Shown one piece after another: positions 2-9,954 of a DNA stretch of 22,161 nucleotides. The position numbers and the translations under genes were made by a program. The stretch is from a virus, in IMG/VR virus record IMGVR_UViG_3300038701_000315, positions 1-22,161 of that record. One strand, given 5' to 3'. Numbering within the stretch: the first letter of the stretch is position 1; each line of letters begins with the position of its first letter. The notes under the pieces were generated by a model. It saw only the letters and a program-made list of their open reading frames with translations. It made no database searches and was not told where the DNA came from.

Positions 2-244
2 TTTAAATTAACTGAATTGAAAAGCTCTGCAAGAAAAGCGGACATAGCCCTAGTTCGGCAAGTTGCAATGTATATTTGCCGCGAGCTTTTGCAAAAATCT
101 CTCCCAACAATTGGTTATTATTTTGGCGGTCGCGATCACACAACCGTTCTTCATGGGCATCGGAAAGTCAAAAATATGATTTTGTCGCGTCAACTTCTGA
201 TGAACGGCAAACCCTTTAACCTAGACCGGATAGGAGAAATCTAA
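2..244 (+). CDS. DnaA domain IV-like DNA-binding protein (5' end cut off)
   Basis: The reading frame is open from base 2 and runs off the left edge, so the true start is outside the window; a TTG at 17 is the first start-like codon inside. The visible 80 residues match the C-terminal DnaA domain (Bac_DnaA_C): an arginine-rich start, then RQVAMYICRELLQKSLPTIG and the DnaA signature GGRDHTTVLHGHRKV, which in DnaA contacts the DnaA box. The AAA+ domain cannot be judged because the gene is cut; in phages this domain usually stands alone. It likely binds DnaA-box-like DNA at a phage origin or promoter; this role is inferred. Its stop overlaps the next start (TAATG). Confidence 0.8.
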   Translation, partial: FKLTELKSSARKADIALVRQVAMYICRELLQKSLPTIGYYFGGRDHTTVLHGHRKVKNMILSRQLLMNGKPFNLDRIGEI

Positions 245-418: not shown

Positions 419-1057
419 ATGCCAAAAAACAAAGACCGCTACGAAATACACTTAAACGGTGAGTTTCATTCTGCAAAGAAAACACGCAGATCCGCAAATA
501 TGGTCGCAGCTACGTTATCCGGCAATGTTGAGATAAAAGACACAGACCCACCAAAGGCAAAAGTCAAGGGTGAGGGATTTGTTATGGAGCAAGAGGTGGT
601 TGATCCTCATGAGACACAGAAGACCACCAAAGTTAAACGGGCTAAACATCAAGCACCTATTGAGCGTATGCACCAACGTGGGTTTATAACGCTTCAGCAG
701 TACCATGCAGCGCAGAAATACTATCATGCTCACATTGTATCATCTGGACAGACAAACCTAGCCATAGACTACGCAAAAGAACGTGTGGACACATTCGGCA
801 ATGGCGAGAGTATCCAAATATCAGAACTAAACGCCAAGCAGGATCTACAGGACGCAAACAAGCAGCTATCGAAAATCGAGGTGTATCGTTTGGAGGCTAT
901 TCTTGTTCAAGAGCAAACACTGCGTAGATATTGTCTTGCTACATTCCGAACAGATAACACCCGCCGGCAACAGAAAGAATCTGCATCTCTAAAGCAGTCT
1001 CTTACGACATTGGCGGTACTTTGGGGATATGAGAGCAGAGGAAGGAAAGTAGCATGA
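419..1057 (+). CDS. DUF6456-like protein
   Basis: This is a 212-residue protein with ATG start and Shine-Dalgarno GAGGG 7 bases upstream. Residues 1-75 are basic and low in complexity. From about residue 78 it resembles the DUF6456 pattern: APIERMHQRGFITLQQYHAA, then a helical segment ending in a YAKERVD-like stretch, a helical middle (residues 140-170) and a C-terminal LKQSLTTLAVLWGY that matches the conserved end of that family. The biochemical role of DUF6456 is not established. A DNA-binding or regulatory role is my inference from its place between a DnaA-like gene and the late promoter. The next gene overlaps it by ATGA. Confidence 0.6.
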   Translation: MPKNKDRYEIHLNGEFHSAKKTRRSANMVAATLSGNVEIKDTDPPKAKVKGEGFVMEQEVVDPHETQKTTKVKRAKHQAPIERMHQRGFITLQQYHAAQKYYHAHIVSSGQTNLAIDYAKERVDTFGNGESIQISELNAKQDLQDANKQLSKIEVYRLEAILVQEQTLRRYCLATFRTDNTRRQQKESASLKQSLTTLAVLWGYESRGRKVA

Positions 1058-1259: not shown

Positions 1260-1499
1260 ATGGTTAGTATTCCAGAGAAAGTACGCAGGACAGCTCAAGA
1301 TGGTGATGGTTATTTTGCACAAAAAGATATTAGCTTGCTTAACCTTGCGGCTGACGAGATTGAACGAATGCACTTAGCCCTTAGCGAGATACTTGAATCG
1401 GATGATTTGAGTTACATAAAAACGCGGGCATTAGTGGCCTTGCCAGACAACGATGATGGGAATCATACAAATAGGGGGATAACCCCGACCGCCGCTTGA
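1260..1499 (+). CDS. Hypothetical protein, 79 residues
   Basis: The ATG start at 1260 has a Shine-Dalgarno (TAGGA at 1249-1253). The protein is acidic and helical (LLNLAADEIERMHLALSEIL), with a polar low-complexity tail after residue 60. I do not recognise a family. It is the last gene before the gene-free region, and its final codons overlap a TTGACA promoter element that begins at 1496. A G-rich/C-rich small hairpin near 1474-1486 lies in its end but has no T-tract. Confidence 0.5.
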   Translation: MVSIPEKVRRTAQDGDGYFAQKDISLLNLAADEIERMHLALSEILESDDLSYIKTRALVALPDNDDGNHTNRGITPTAA

Positions 1500-1523
1500 C
1501 ATCTGCAAACCATAAGGTAGCAT
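1496..1523 (+). promoter_or_regulatory. Candidate sigma70-type promoter of the late region
   Basis: A perfect TTGACA (-35) at 1496-1501 is followed after 16 bases by TAGCAT (-10, four of six consensus bases) at 1518-1523. Transcription would start near 1530, giving a leader of about 330 nt before the gene at 1861. It sits at the boundary between the small early genes and the late genes. The -10 region lies inside one arm of an inverted repeat (1511-1518 with 1576-1583), so a regulator could bind there. This is inferred from sequence only. Confidence 0.5.
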
Positions 1524-1583
1524 GTGATTTAACATGGCGATTTGCGTTTAACGGCGGGTCACCTTTTTGATTCAGACCTTATG
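1511..1583. repeat. Inverted repeat CATAAGGT ... ACCTTATG
   Basis: The 8-base arms at 1511-1518 and 1576-1583 are perfect reverse complements and extend after one mismatch with CAAA (1506-1509) against TTTG (1585-1588). The left arm touches the -10 element. Between the arms lie a small palindrome (1521-1525 with 1532-1536) and two similar elements TTTAAC-GGCG at 1528 and 1547, 19 bases apart. It may be a split operator or, in read-through RNA, a long hairpin. Confidence 0.45.
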
Positions 1584-1860
1584 TTTTGTGAGATATAGGC
1601 TCCAAAGGGTAAGGGGAGAAAGCTAAGGTTTTCTCATAAATACGCATGATACTAGAACGGTATCGTTAATATGGCTAACGTCCCTGCAATTTGTATACGT
1701 TAGCCCTCCTCATTTCATACCGTGCACTCCTTACCTCAAGGCCATAACCCAAGGGTCTAGCTTGAGTATGCTCACGCCTAAGAAGCACACTGGCGCGGAC
1801 CGAATGTTGTGCAAAGCACTCGGGTTATAGGAACAGTGTAAGCAGCTAAGAGGGTGATTC
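1530..1860 (+). ncRNA. Candidate structured RNA or long structured 5' leader
   Basis: No ORF longer than about 20 codons is found, but helices are unusually dense. Seen helices: 1608-1616 with 1727-1735 (GGTAAGG/CCTTACC core); inside it the hairpin 1616-1623/1628-1635 (GAGAAAGC-TAAG-GTTTTCTC, which competes for base 1616); 1657-1663 with 1717-1723 (ACGGTAT/ATACCGT); nested in that, 1673-1681 with 1697-1705 (GGCTAACGT/ACGTTAGCC, nine perfect pairs, 15-nt loop). A second domain is closed by 1742-1750 with 1822-1831 (CCATAACCC/GGGTTATAGG, one bulge). It does not match tmRNA, SRP, RNase P, 6S or tRNA as I know them. It could be a free ncRNA or a cis-acting leader for control or antitermination of the late operon. 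Confidence 0.45.
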
Positions 1861-2124
1861 ATGTCTGAGCTAAAAGATCAATTACGAACTGCAAAAGAAA
1901 TAATTGATAAACATTTCCCCGAAGACGATGCACCTCAAGGGCTTTTGTTAGATGTTGTTAGGTCAATTAGAGAAAGCGAAACTAAAGGTTATAACGAGGG
2001 CGTAGAATCGTATTGTGAAGAAATCGTGGAAGATCTTCTTAGATACGGTCCTCATGCTCCTGTGGGCATTCTACCAAATTTTCGAGGCATTTTCACCAAT
2101 GACAACATTGCTATCAATGACTAA
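1861..2124 (+). CDS. Hypothetical protein, 87 residues
   Basis: This is the first gene after the structured leader. ATG at 1861 has a Shine-Dalgarno (GAGGG) about 6 bases upstream. The N-terminal half is helical and charged (residues 1-60); the rest has no recognisable motif. No family recognised. Its last codons overlap the start of a smaller ORF in another frame. Confidence 0.55.
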   Translation: MSELKDQLRTAKEIIDKHFPEDDAPQGLLLDVVRSIRESETKGYNEGVESYCEEIVEDLLRYGPHAPVGILPNFRGIFTNDNIAIND

Positions 2125-2218
2125 AGAAAATGCCCCAGGCTTTAAACCAGTATCAGCACAAGACCTTATTGAAGAGGCAAGAAAAGCACGAGAGCTAGAT
2201 GAACGACAAGAAGCTTGA
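2099..2218 (+). CDS. Very small hypothetical protein (39 or 33 residues)
   Basis: An ORF overlaps the end of the previous gene. Candidate starts are ATG 2099 (weak AGG about 11 bases upstream) and ATG 2117 (overlapping the previous stop region). The common part is ENAPGFKPVSAQDLIEEARK followed by a charged helix. The frame is open further upstream to an ATG at 2015, but that part is the shadow of the neighbouring gene. Evidence is limited to coupling and plausible composition, so it may not be real. Confidence 0.35.
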   Translation: MTTLLSMTKENAPGFKPVSAQDLIEEARKARELDERQEA

Positions 2219-2381
2219 AGGCATCAAAGGGATAACCAACGAAACAATCCATGAAGTGCTGATAGCTCGCAATAACCTAATGCTTGAAGCTGTCATTGCC
2301 GCTTACATGGATACAAGTACACCAGAAGAAACAGCGGCAATACTCGAAGAACACGCAAGGCAGTTAAGAGAATATGGCTGA
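2199..2381 (+). CDS. Hypothetical protein, 60 residues
   Basis: The ORF starts with ATG at 2199 inside the end of the preceding small ORF and ends 8 bases inside terS. It is a helical, acidic protein (TNETIHEVLIARNNLMLEAV and EETAAILEEHARQLREYG). No family recognised. Small helical proteins just before terS are common in phage genomes; nothing shows its role. Confidence 0.5.
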   Translation: MNDKKLEGIKGITNETIHEVLIARNNLMLEAVIAAYMDTSTPEETAAILEEHARQLREYG

Positions 2382-2805
2382 TAAGCTAACACCAAAGCAA
2401 GAGGCATTTGCTCAAAAGTACGTTGAGTGCAGCAACGCTTCGGAAGCTTATAGATTTGCTTATAATGTAGGTGAAGGGGCAAAGCCTGAAACTATTTGGA
2501 AAGAGGCTTATTCGTTGCTTGGAAACCCCAAGGTTGCCCCTATGGTCGAAAAGCTGCAACAAGAACACCGTGAAAGGCATTCAGTAACCGTTGATAGCCT
2601 TACTCAAGAGCTAGAAGAAGCAAGACTAGTAGCAACAGCCGAAAAGCAAGGCGCAGCTATGACAAGCGCAACAATGGGCAAAGCTAAACTTCATGGTCTT
2701 CTCGTTGATAAGAACGAACACACCGGCAAAGACGGTGGCCCAATCGAAACAACAGGTATAGCGATTTACCAGCTACCAGATAATGGCAGATCATCAACCG
2801 ATTAG
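2374..2805 (+). CDS. terS: Terminase small subunit
   Basis: This 143-residue protein begins with the typical Terminase_2 pattern LTPKQEAFAQKYVECSNASEAY, a helix-turn-helix DNA-binding region in residues 5-60, followed by a helical oligomerisation region (about 65-115, SLTQELEEARLVATAEKQ). The length fits the family. The protein would recognise the packaging site of the phage DNA and load the large subunit. The C-terminal tail overlaps the terL start by 23 bases. The packaging (cos or pac) site itself was not identified. Confidence 0.85.
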   Translation: MADKLTPKQEAFAQKYVECSNASEAYRFAYNVGEGAKPETIWKEAYSLLGNPKVAPMVEKLQQEHRERHSVTVDSLTQELEEARLVATAEKQGAAMTSATMGKAKLHGLLVDKNEHTGKDGGPIETTGIAIYQLPDNGRSSTD

Positions 2806-4174
2806 TCCGCAGGAAGGTCCACAAGAGACTTTTCTAGCAAGTGCCGCTGATATAGCAATTTACGGCGGTGCAGCGGGTGGCGGGAAGTCTTGGGCAATCT
2901 TGCTAGAGGCTTTACGCAATACGGGGAACAAGGAATTTGGCGCTACAATATTTCGGCGCAATTCAGTCCAAATTAGAAACGAGGGCGGTTTATGGGATGA
3001 AAGCGAAAAGCTTTACCCTGCCGTTGGCGCAAGTCCTAAGTCGCATGTTTTAGAGTGGTCGTTTCCATCTGGCTCAAAGATTAGTTTTGCTCATCTAGAG
3101 CACGACAAAACAGTATTGAACTATCAAGGGTCACAAATACCTTTGATTTGCTTTGACGAGCTAACACATTTTAGTGCCAAGCAGTTTTGGTACATGCTTT
3201 CACGTAATCGCTCGATGTGTGGTGTTAAGCCATATGTGAGGGCAACTTGTAACCCTGATGCTGATAGCTGGGTTGCTAAATTTATCGAATGGTGGATTGA
3301 CCAAGACACAGGCTTAGCCATTCCAGAGCGTTCCGGCGTTATTCGTTGGTTTGTCCGTTCAGGTGAAACGATTGTATGGGCTGATAACCCTGAAGAATTA
3401 GAACAATACAAAATGAAGGATGAGAACGGCAAAGACGTTCCTATTCCTCCTAAGTCGGTAACGTTTGTTAGTTCAAAGCTAACCGATAATAAAGCGCTTA
3501 TGGCTGCTGATCCTAGCTACATGGCTAACTTGATGGCCTTGAGTGTGGTTGATCGCGAAAGATTGTTAGGCGGCAACTGGAAGATTAGACCTTCGTCGGG
3601 CTTATATTTCAAGCGAGATTGGGTCGAAGTTGTTGATGTTGTTCCAGCAGGCTTACAGGTCGTAAGAGGTTGGGATTTAGCGGCAACGCCTGAAGATGGC
3701 AACAACGATCCAGATTGGACTTGCGGCACAAAGATGGGTGTTGATCAATCTGGCACATATTACGTTTTAGACCACAAATATGAGAGATTTAGTCCTAGCG
3801 GTGTTGAGCGCCTTGTCAAGAACACAGCAACGCAAGACGGGCGCGGGACAATGATTAGTTTGCCTCAAGATCCTGGGCAGGCTGGCAAGTCTCAGAAGTC
3901 AACATATTTAAAATTGTTAGCTGGTTACAATATTCGATCAAACACAGTCACGGGCGATAAAGTCACTCGTTTTTCTGGTTTTTCAGCGCAGGCAGAAGGC
4001 GGCAACGTCAAAGTATTGCGCGGTTCTTGGAATGATAGATGGTTCATAGAGCTTGAAAACTTTCCACCAGAGGAAGGCCATGACGATGATGCGGATTCAA
4101 CAGCACAGGCTTTTAATGAATTGGCTAAACCTAAACCAAGCACAAAAACAAAAACCGTAGCAGGGGCTTATTAA
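2783..4174 (+). CDS. terL: Terminase large subunit
   Basis: This 463-residue protein is the packaging motor ATPase and nuclease. The N-terminal ATPase has Walker A YGGAAGGGKS (K35), Walker B LICFDELTHF (D125, E126) and a TCNP-type coupling segment (about 155-158). The C-terminal RNase H-like nuclease has acidic residues at RGWDLAAT (D298), LPQDPG (D363) and HDDDADS (434-438). Length and order match full-length terminases. The start lies within terS; the Shine-Dalgarno is weak, which suggests coupling. Its stop overlaps the portal start. Confidence 0.95.
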   Translation: MADHQPISPQEGPQETFLASAADIAIYGGAAGGGKSWAILLEALRNTGNKEFGATIFRRNSVQIRNEGGLWDESEKLYPAVGASPKSHVLEWSFPSGSKISFAHLEHDKTVLNYQGSQIPLICFDELTHFSAKQFWYMLSRNRSMCGVKPYVRATCNPDADSWVAKFIEWWIDQDTGLAIPERSGVIRWFVRSGETIVWADNPEELEQYKMKDENGKDVPIPPKSVTFVSSKLTDNKALMAADPSYMANLMALSVVDRERLLGGNWKIRPSSGLYFKRDWVEVVDVVPAGLQVVRGWDLAATPEDGNNDPDWTCGTKMGVDQSGTYYVLDHKYERFSPSGVERLVKNTATQDGRGTMISLPQDPGQAGKSQKSTYLKLLAGYNIRSNTVTGDKVTRFSGFSAQAEGGNVKVLRGSWNDRWFIELENFPPEEGHDDDADSTAQAFNELAKPKPSTKTKTVAGAY

Positions 4175-8459: not shown

Positions 8460-9451
8460 CATTTGACCAGCTTCTTAGCCAATATGACAAGGAACTCAAT
8501 CAAGCCTTTCTTGCTAGTATCGATGAGATTAAATCTAAGATACGCATAAAGGAAATCATTGAGGCTCTTGATAGAGGCGATAAACGCGCCGCGCTTGATG
8601 TGTTGTTTCTTGAACGTGAGGCGTATGCAGAATTTGAACGTGTTCTGGAACAAGCTTTCGAGGATGGTGGGGACCATATCATTCAAGAGCTTGGTGAGTT
8701 GCGCGACCAAGAGGCAAATAGATTTGTATTTCGGTTTAACGCTCGTAACTTGGCTGCTGAGAGAATTATCCGTGAGCATTCATCAAATCTAATTACACGG
8801 ATTGTTGATGACCAAAAAGAAGCGGTTAGAACGGCGTTAGAGCAGGGCTTGCAAGAGGGTAACAATCCTAGAACTGTTGCACTTGATATCGTTGGCCGTA
8901 TTGATCAGCGTACAGGTCGTAGAACAGGCGGCATACTTGGCCTCACAACGGCGCAAGAGAAAGCGATGGCAAAAGCTAAGCTGGAACTGCAAAACGGTGA
9001 CTACGGTTCGTTTATGACGCGCTCAAGACGTGATCGACGCTTTGATGCGATGCTAACAAAGGCAAAACAAGAAGATAAGGCTTTATCTAAGGCTCAAATC
9101 AGCAAGCTATTGTCTCGTTACTCTGACAGGCTTCTAAAATTACGCGGTGACACAATCGGGCGAACTGAAGCGCTAACGGCTTTGAGCACGGCTGAATACA
9201 CAGCTATGGAGCAGTTAGTTGCTACGGGCAAGATAAGCGCAAACCAAATAACGGGCCTTTGGGACGCTTCAAGAGATATAAAAACACGTATTGATCATAT
9301 GATTGCCAATGGGCAGCTTATTAAATTTGGCGAACGGTTTAAAGTTGGTGGCAAACTAATGAAGCATCCGGGTGACCCAAATGGCGGCGCGGATCAAGTT
9401 GTAAATTGTAGATGCAGAGCAAGATGGCGAATAAATTATTTTGCTAACTAG
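8456..9451 (+). CDS. MuF-like minor head protein
   Basis: This 331-residue protein has an N-terminal helical half and a C-terminal Phage_Mu_F domain: GDTIGRTEALTALSTAEYTA, then a tryptophan-containing GLWDASRDIKTRIDH segment, LMKHPGDPNGGADQVV and the final VVNCRCRARW with C318 and C320. MuF-type proteins bind portal and capsid and are needed for head assembly or DNA ejection. It usually follows the portal gene directly; here it is placed after the connector and neck genes. The HNH gene follows after 11 bases. Confidence 0.8.
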   Translation: MTFDQLLSQYDKELNQAFLASIDEIKSKIRIKEIIEALDRGDKRAALDVLFLEREAYAEFERVLEQAFEDGGDHIIQELGELRDQEANRFVFRFNARNLAAERIIREHSSNLITRIVDDQKEAVRTALEQGLQEGNNPRTVALDIVGRIDQRTGRRTGGILGLTTAQEKAMAKAKLELQNGDYGSFMTRSRRDRRFDAMLTKAKQEDKALSKAQISKLLSRYSDRLLKLRGDTIGRTEALTALSTAEYTAMEQLVATGKISANQITGLWDASRDIKTRIDHMIANGQLIKFGERFKVGGKLMKHPGDPNGGADQVVNCRCRARWRINYFAN

Positions 9452-9490
9452 GAACGAGATACGTGAAATATAGATCGAATGTAAATTGTA
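9400..9490 (+). repeat. 11-bp direct repeat across the MuF/HNH boundary
   Basis: TGTAAATTGTA occurs at 9400-9410 (MuF codons V-N-C) and again at 9480-9490 (HNH codons V-N-C), exactly 80 bases apart. It may be a trace of duplication when the endonuclease gene was inserted, or chance similarity. Confidence 0.3.
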
Positions 9491-9954
9491 AAACCAGGAA
9501 TGGTGAAGTTCCTTCATGGCTTTTTAAAAAGTCAAAATCAAAAGAAAAACATGAATGTATTATATGGCCTTTTTCAAAAACGGGAAACGGCTATGGTAAG
9601 TTAAGATATAATGGAAAATTTTATTTAGCTCACAGGCTTATGTGTGAGTTAAAGCATGGCAAACCTAAGAATGAAAAACTAGAGGCTTCTCATTCATGTG
9701 GGAATAAATATTGTGTCAATCCAAATCATTTAACATGGAAAACACATAAACAAAATGAAGCTGATAAAATCAAGCATGGAACTTTAGTCTTAACAGCCAT
9801 CAAAAATTCATCTGTTTGTAATCCTGAAATGGTTAGGCAGATAAGGAAAATAGGTAAATCTCAAACTGGAAGAGAACTAGCTAAAAAATTCGGTATTAGC
9901 CCTCAACAAATTTCTTCGATACTGGCTAGAAAAACATGGGCTTGGCTTGATTAA
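9463..9954 (+). CDS. HNH homing endonuclease
   Basis: This 163-residue protein is a free-standing HNH endonuclease. The HNH_3-type core is seen as AHRLMCELKHGKPKNEKLEA (H57), SHSCGNKYC (H77, C79, C84) and VNPNHL (N86, H89). Residues 121-162 form a helix-turn-helix DNA-binding end (QTGRELAKKFGISPQQISSI). The gene is visibly richer in A+T than its neighbours and splits the head block from the tail block, as expected of a mobile gene. GTG 9463 is used as start, with AGGAACGAG upstream. Its stop abuts the next ATG directly. Confidence 0.88.
   Translation: MKYRSNVNCKTRNGEVPSWLFKKSKSKEKHECIIWPFSKTGNGYGKLRYNGKFYLAHRLMCELKHGKPKNEKLEASHSCGNKYCVNPNHLTWKTHKQNEADKIKHGTLVLTAIKNSSVCNPEMVRQIRKIGKSQTGRELAKKFGISPQQISSILARKTWAWLD

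Follow-up and report, generated by a model that had tools for sequence, protein, structure and literature searches.

The window analysed here, meaning the whole stretch of DNA, is a virus record of 22,161 bases whose main genes all run forward. The gene order is a GafY-like gene, a GafZ-like gene, a promoter, a leader, and the terminase genes terS and terL; all window features given below lie on the + strand. The GafY-like gene is present with its 3' part only (2..244), since the record end truncates it, and the GafZ-like gene (419..1057) encodes 212 amino acids. The first gene after the leader (1861..2124) encodes 87 amino acids with no assigned family, and its position is held by different genes in relatives. 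It is followed by the terminase small subunit (2374..2805; PF03592, E 1.7e-13) and the large subunit (2783..4174), which represents one of the four TerL classes found downstream of the same promoter block.

Positions 1500-1860 contain no protein-coding frame of at least 50 amino acids and are the sole gap of this size between forward-strand genes. An earlier note on this DNA had described them as the only long non-coding stretch, which we confirmed, and had proposed that these 360 bp might be a new structured phage RNA, which it could not match to tmRNA, SRP, RNase P, 6S, group I intron or GOLLD/ROOL. In the Rfam covariance check, no match reached the gathering score, and at a loose threshold the best one had an E of 1.2, on the opposite strand. 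No tRNA or tmRNA was found, and the search for similar DNA in named phages or plasmids gave no match relevant to the leader. The complementary stretches listed in the note all exist in the sequence. The region also folds better than its dinucleotide shuffles, but the effect is modest (z -1.9 to -2.3; 2 of 100 shuffles equally good). Positions 1534-1863 gave the lowest value among the 68 windows of 330 nt of the record (z -2.6), with rival windows down to -2.56. With a fold about two standard deviations better than shuffles, other windows close to it and a negative Rfam result, the observation is real yet weak when taken alone.

GafY and GafZ are the activator and the antiterminator of the Caulobacter gene transfer agents, according to PMC9632790 and PMC11150451. 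GafY is homologous to DnaA domain IV (PMC9632790). GafZ antiterminates by way of a required element located between the -10 and the -35, and the promoter is followed by a UTR of 229 nt and by terminators (PMC11150451). The work in Caulobacter found no resemblance of GafZ to any antiterminator known so far, and the spacer site that it mapped is putative. DUF6456 is the family of the GafA homologues, whose smaller representatives in Hyphomicrobiales are usually encoded after a DnaA-like gene (PMC9638019).

The gene pair of the window has the composition and order described for GafY/GafZ. Its upstream member encodes a helix-turn-helix of the DnaA domain IV type (Bac_DnaA_C, PF08299, E 1.2e-23), and full-length homologues of 193-199 amino acids in L006 and L111 match the same family. 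The 212-aa protein is a distant member of the DUF6456/phrog_21451 family. It was placed there by phrog_21451 (E 7e-12) and by hhalign against DUF6456-like phage proteins (probability 98.8, E 5e-17), and a direct comparison to Pfam DUF6456 remained below the cut-off. A profile search also retrieved DUF6456-type phage proteins (E 1e-13 to 2e-6), and the L037 protein matched phrog_21451 with E 3e-48 and DUF6456 weakly. We suggest that the protein is a distant homologue of GafZ, by a transitive chain rather than by direct comparison to Caulobacter GafZ. The profile search of PDB sequences gave no match, and the AlphaFold model was too poor for use (pLDDT 54). As no Q-family homologue appeared in Pfam, PHROGs, NCBIfam or PDB sequences, the regulator is proposed to work like Q and not claimed as a Q.

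Some relatives carry altered or relocated versions of this regulator. The GafZ-like gene of L109 (reverse strand, about 8746-8748) has an in-frame TAG mid-gene with the rest conserved, so it is either a pseudogene or a stop that is read. On three Sinorhizobium meliloti plasmids (L211-L213), the GafZ-like gene has a neighbour of the TlpA family, annotated as such in L212 and L213. Neither a terminase nor the late element was seen there, and the gene could represent a domesticated regulator.

Related contigs were gathered via the terS protein and two DNA patterns, and L111 (JABSPG010000088.1) via a profile of the 212-aa protein. Ten leaders were compared, the window's own included, with L005 from the element onward only. 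L111 is a phage contig binned in an Ekhidna (Bacteroidota) MAG; related GafZ-like systems are found in Alphaproteobacteria, and the binning may be wrong.

All leaders share a constant 5' block, composed of a -35 TTGACA, a spacer, a -10, a -10-like hexamer, GGYGATTTGCG and a hairpin. In the window, these are the -35 element at 1496..1501, a type I spacer at 1502..1517, the -10 element TAGCAT at 1518..1523, and the -10-like hexamer TAACAT at 1530..1535, a predicted sigma-dependent pause element in the initial transcribed region. The conserved element GGCGATTTGCG follows at 1536..1546 (+7 to +17) and is the predicted pause site; it fits the general elemental pause consensus, with G at -10, a pyrimidine at -1 and G at +1. 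In the window's group, all nine promoters with upstream sequence come after a GafZ-like gene, and all nine present NANNAT at the -10-like hexamer.

The spacer exists in two types that track the type of the GafZ-like protein in 9/9 promoters, which makes it a candidate regulator-specific binding element. Spacer identity was 0.79 and 0.72 within types and 0.39 between types, compared to 0.44 for shuffled pairs. The GafZ-like proteins of L003 and L111 are 36-38% identical to that of the window, and their spacer is unrelated to that of the other promoters. In L111, both regulator and spacer are type II, although a gene and the upstream DNA that separate the two look like those of the type I lineage. 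The -10 of type II promoters is weak and their gap is shorter. GGYGATTTGCG is unchanged across spacer and regulator types.

Upstream of the promoter, a conserved block (1467..1486) contains GGGGGATAA (reverse TTATCCCCC, DnaA-box-like). It is present in L002, L006, L008, L027 and L109, altered in L111, and lost or displaced in L003 and L025. As a speculation from its sequence, it may be a site for the GafY-like protein. In L025, an HNH_3 gene (688-1341) has been inserted after this block and separates it from the -35.

In more distant phages, the same 8-mer of the element was noticed right after the GafZ-like gene. A scan by pattern retrieved 18 contigs, and roughly every second match was a coincidence within coding sequence. 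A further test, not biased by the element, used the GafZ-like protein as the sole query; it retrieved 72 contigs with 64 distinct downstream regions. In a segment starting 30 bases ahead of the stop and ending 250 bases past it, the exact GATTTGCG was found in 46 of these 64 loci and in none of the controls (upstream 0/59, antisense 0/64, further downstream 0/64). Within two mismatches, GGTGATTTGCG was present in 55/64 loci and in 23 of 2065 other 100-nt windows; these locus counts are not independent events, because possession of the element was part of the reason for choosing the seven proteins aligned as query, and the loci are related. In 46 distant loci, a TATAGT-like hexamer (A 93%, T 100%) follows the -10 and is directly followed by GGTGATTTGCG. 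From a separate collection, prophage-like loci on Rhizobium and Pseudochrobactrum plasmids (L209, L210) both contained the element, and the Pseudochrobactrum one presented the full order of GafY-like gene, GafZ-like gene, element, terminator, terS and terL.

The element was absent, beyond two mismatches of GGTGATTTGCG, in nine of the 64 loci. It was also missing from a Bradyrhizobium phage, from three Sinorhizobium plasmids without evident prophage, and from the GafA-carrying phage RDJL Phi 1. Among GTDB contigs, the window-type pattern ATGGYGATTTGCGTTTANNNGCGG gave no exact element. A five-codon mini-ORF (ATG-GYG-ATT-TGC-GYN-TAR) is found in 9/10 sequences of the window's group, but distant loci read TAGTGG at that place; its ATG is thus better read as the end of the -10-like hexamer. 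In the literature searched, we found no description of the shared arrangement of -10-like hexamer and GGYGATTTGCG, nor of the mosaic leader.

The element and its downstream arm form a 5' stem-loop (1536..1563) followed by ACCTTTTTGA, which looks like a terminator. Across the nine distinct sequences of the window's group, 95% of cells are paired, with one-sided changes only. For 36 non-redundant loci, the hairpin had a mean z of -0.94 (s.e. 0.17) against shuffled downstream arms, and GGYGA pairs 5/5 in 15 loci, with 7.1 expected. The sequence of the 3' arm is variable, and in many loci a lower stem is impossible. Since the constant part is the sequence in the pause register, our preference is for a site of pausing and loading; the hairpin would then be secondary or serve as the first terminator stem.

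Terminators are enriched in the leaders. The ten leaders of the window's group contain 16 terminator-like hairpins in sense, representing about seven kinds by our own grouping and repeated by descent, vs. 2.6 expected from shuffles and one in antisense. Among distant loci, 21 of 55 have a strict terminator at most 122 nt after the element, compared to 2/55 in antisense, 2/55 far downstream and 0/54 upstream. The window's own leader has one terminator-like site only, the 5' stem-loop with TTTTT, and its modules A to C are devoid of U-tracts.

On the 3' side of the constant block, each of the ten leaders is a different patchwork of short hairpin modules. Module A1 (1567..1639) consists of adjacent hairpins at 1577-1614 and 1616-1635 and recurs in L002 and L109. 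Its consensus fold has a z of -5.6 against column shuffles, and two of its pairs are compensatory. The short helix of the earlier note at 1616-1623/1628-1635 is therein upheld by two compensatory double changes in L109 (window GGAGAAAGCTAAGGTTTTCTC, L109 GGAGGCAGCTAAGGTTGCCTC). Module A2 (1635..1668; hairpin GATAC...GTATC) recurs in L002 and L025. Module B (1668..1710; hairpin GGCTAACGT...ACGTTAGCC), which includes the putative helix 1673-1681/1697-1705, is 43/43 identical in L027, where it lies directly 3' of a 70-aa ORF.

Module C (1709..1863) is a structured domain that extends to the ribosome-binding site of the next gene and recurs in L003 and L111. Five of its pairs changed on both sides among three sequences, a result that 1/300 column shuffles equalled (2/500 in a second shuffle test), and it contains a run of 32 invariant columns. 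One of its helices may cover AAGAGGG, the ribosome-binding site. The boundary block around this site (TAAGCAGCTAAGAGGGTGATTC-ATG, 1839..1863) is joined to different genes among phages.

The nested two-domain architecture of the earlier note was not confirmed by the relatives. Its long-range helices 1608-1616/1727-1735 and 1657-1663/1717-1723 each join a piece seen in L002, L109 and L025 to another seen in L003 and L111, and no relative has both. They pair A1 or A2 with C, modules that never occur together in relatives, and are therefore not conserved units. The helix 1742-1750/1822-1831 competes with the better supported fold of module C. Covariation in related phages was found for modules A1 and C. 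The region is a mosaic, and a single structured RNA is for this reason not supported.

Module borders avoid stems, with a mean enclosure of 5.97 vs. 7.95 expected (s.d. 0.56) and none of 5000 permutations as low; this statistic is supportive rather than exact, as borders repeat across leaders and alignment edges may favour variable linkers. Module junctions overlap by a few bases only, so assembly chimeras at shared words are unlikely. Inspecting the borders by eye for integron-like attC cassettes or dif-type recombination sites revealed no common border sequence. The hairpins on the downstream side are modules that can be exchanged; most likely, they represent terminators and structured ends that swapped accessory genes left behind.

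The interval between promoter and terS looks like an exchange point of accessory genes that may carry anti-defence genes, and the leader stands out as a place of accessory-gene exchange in phages, including a likely anti-defence gene. In L027, a Tad2-like gene (3184-3471; Thoeris anti-defence, PF11195, E 3.7e-24) lies between the late promoter and terS. The window (2015-2218) and its relatives have a small gene with a conserved C-terminus, VSAQDLIEEARKARELDERQEA, and N-termini that differ between phages.

In L002 (1764-4061) and L008 (4392-6689), the TerL ORF has 765 amino acids and an intein splicing domain (PF14890, E 7.4e-12 in L002), with an HNH_3 ORF inside in another frame; the insertion is absent from L003 and L005. 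The window itself has an HNH_3 endonuclease gene (9463-9954, E 5.3e-10) between structural genes, in the stretch of lowest GC of the record (0.34).

Altogether, we consider it likely that 1496-1863 is a late promoter of the Q/GafYZ type with the untranslated leader of the packaging and structural operon, with a predicted sigma-dependent pause and, behind it, a leader rich in hairpins through which an antiterminator would have to take the polymerase. This reading builds on what the sequence itself offers: anatomy, linkage, conservation, mosaicism and terminator enrichment. RNA polymerase would start near 1530, and sigma, contacting the second, -10-like hexamer, would cause a promoter-proximal pause near 1545/1546, within GGCGATTTGCG. 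The GafZ-like protein, bound in the -35/-10 spacer and helped by the GafY-like DnaA-domain protein, would load on the paused polymerase; Q does so at lambda pR', and the same has been proposed for GafZ at gtaT in Caulobacter. Once modified, the polymerase would pass the hairpins and terminators and reach the late genes, and transcription would stop in the leader when the antiterminator is missing; module C would perhaps keep the first gene's ribosome-binding site covered. Pausing, loading and readthrough are what we infer from this anatomy. Several observations count against this reading: the 212-aa protein stays below the DUF6456 cut-off and has a poor structural model, the window's leader offers a single terminator-like site, type II promoters deviate in their -10 and gap, and some loci with GafZ-like or GafA genes are devoid of the element.

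Among the roles guessed in the earlier note, a leader for late-operon antitermination agrees best with the GafY/GafZ-like genes, the terminators and the geometry of the promoter. This guess is supported in outline, and the put-like RNA that the note compared it to is less favoured than a promoter-loaded protein. A broader hypothesis, which we regard as unlikely, is that GGYGATTTGCG and its hairpin are a widespread cis element of GafZ-dependent antitermination in alphaproteobacterial phages, acting on the polymerase as RNA or RNA-DNA hybrid and ancestral to the control of gene transfer agents, with the leader modules as exchangeable RNA domains whose borders match domain borders.

The main rival is that antitermination is due to the RNA of the 5' stem-loop, as with HK022 put: after its transcription it would bind and modify the polymerase, and the GafZ-like protein would merely activate the promoter. 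The predicted transcript begins with element and hairpin, which remain unaltered when spacer and GafZ-like protein switch type, and the greater stability than with shuffled downstream arms gives the hairpin moderate support. However, the conservation concerns the primary sequence of the 5' arm, in a lambda-type pause register and together with the -10-like hexamer, whereas the 3' arm is variable and the lower stem cannot form in many loci. All pair changes in the window's group are one-sided, and the window has a C-A mismatch. The evidence points to a promoter-loaded protein of the Q/GafZ type over a put-like RNA, and we hold the latter to be quite unlikely. The promoter-close terminators also predict short RNAs when the antiterminator is absent, and the leader might produce one or more small regulatory RNAs (a terminated leader RNA, cf. 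lambda 6S RNA) that act on phage or host targets, for which the covariation in A1 and C would speak. But a terminated leader RNA is an expected by-product of our preferred explanation too, and no module is common to all relatives, making a conserved target unlikely; we find this reading improbable.

It is unlikely, too, that most of the noncoding DNA past the promoter consists of accessory genes in decay and the 3' hairpins they left, serving no function today. The sense-only enrichment of terminators, the compensatory changes in A1 and C, and the module breakpoints that avoid stems speak against it, and decay would leave the constant promoter and pause element unexplained. Nonetheless, relatives have intact genes at the same site (Tad2-like in L027, gp49_66 family in L005) and module B comes after a gene in L027, and for part of the DNA such decay is compatible with the late-promoter explanation. 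The last reading, which we hold to be very improbable, sees in the region either one new structured phage RNA spanning the 360 nt or an element for packaging or of the cos type beside terS. Its place, two genes ahead of terS, and a fold somewhat better than that of shuffles speak for it, but its modules are never all together elsewhere, and relatives with near-identical terS or unrelated TerL retain the promoter and 5' element only. A cos site is likewise unsupported, as relatives with the same terS N-terminus retain the promoter block alone, and nothing here spoke for the packaging RNA or the RNA acting on the host that the note had considered.

The late-promoter explanation invokes a kind of mechanism that is already known, and phage homologues of GafA are also known (PMC6363796). 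Roseobacter phage RDJL Phi 1, like the Rhodobacterales GTA with GafA, shares a DUF6456 regulator with our phages (gp38, PF20057, E 9e-11). It differs in its larger protein, in a gene that is not beside terS, and in the intergenic regions, where no copy of the element was found.

Better-described regulators offer further parallels. In HK022, the put RNA, whose two stem-loops suffice for antitermination, folds close to the promoter where the phage transcript begins, and the 5' stem-loop here shares this location. In contrast to put, the primary sequence is conserved here in a pause register, and every member of the window's group has the gene of a protein regulator next to it.

For Caulobacter crescentus PgtaT with GafY/GafZ, compared by its published description (PMC11150451 and PMC9632790), the likeness includes a DnaA-domain-IV-like protein with a DUF6456-type one, a predicted recognition in the spacer between -35 and -10, and a long untranslated region with terminators to cross. 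Here, however, the system belongs to phages, the gene pair is beside the promoter, and the terminators are in the leader, whereas those of Caulobacter come after the first gene. The conserved -10-like hexamer and GGYGATTTGCG are a further difference, as the portions of PMC11150451 and PMC9632790 considered have no mention of them for gtaT.

Q needs a -10-like sequence for its sigma-dependent pause and binds the QBE in the spacer (PMC6606751). Compared to lambda pR', our regulator has no detected sequence relation to Q, the spacer and element sequences differ, and the leader modules are swapped. The shared features are a regulator gene just upstream, a -35, a -10, six bases and a -10-like hexamer, G at +7 and C/G at +16/+17, and a terminator-bearing leader ahead of the late genes. 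The lambda pause position is +16/+17, and lambda pR' presents AACGAT at 44587 and then GGGTTAATTCG, in the same register as the hexamer and element of the window; the window thus has the -10-like sequence in register for a predicted pause near +16/+17. The conserved -10-like hexamer and GGYGATTTGCG beside most of the examined GafZ-like genes predict a lambda-like sigma-dependent pause as the loading point of GafZ. If true, phage late control and gene transfer agent control would be one mechanism.
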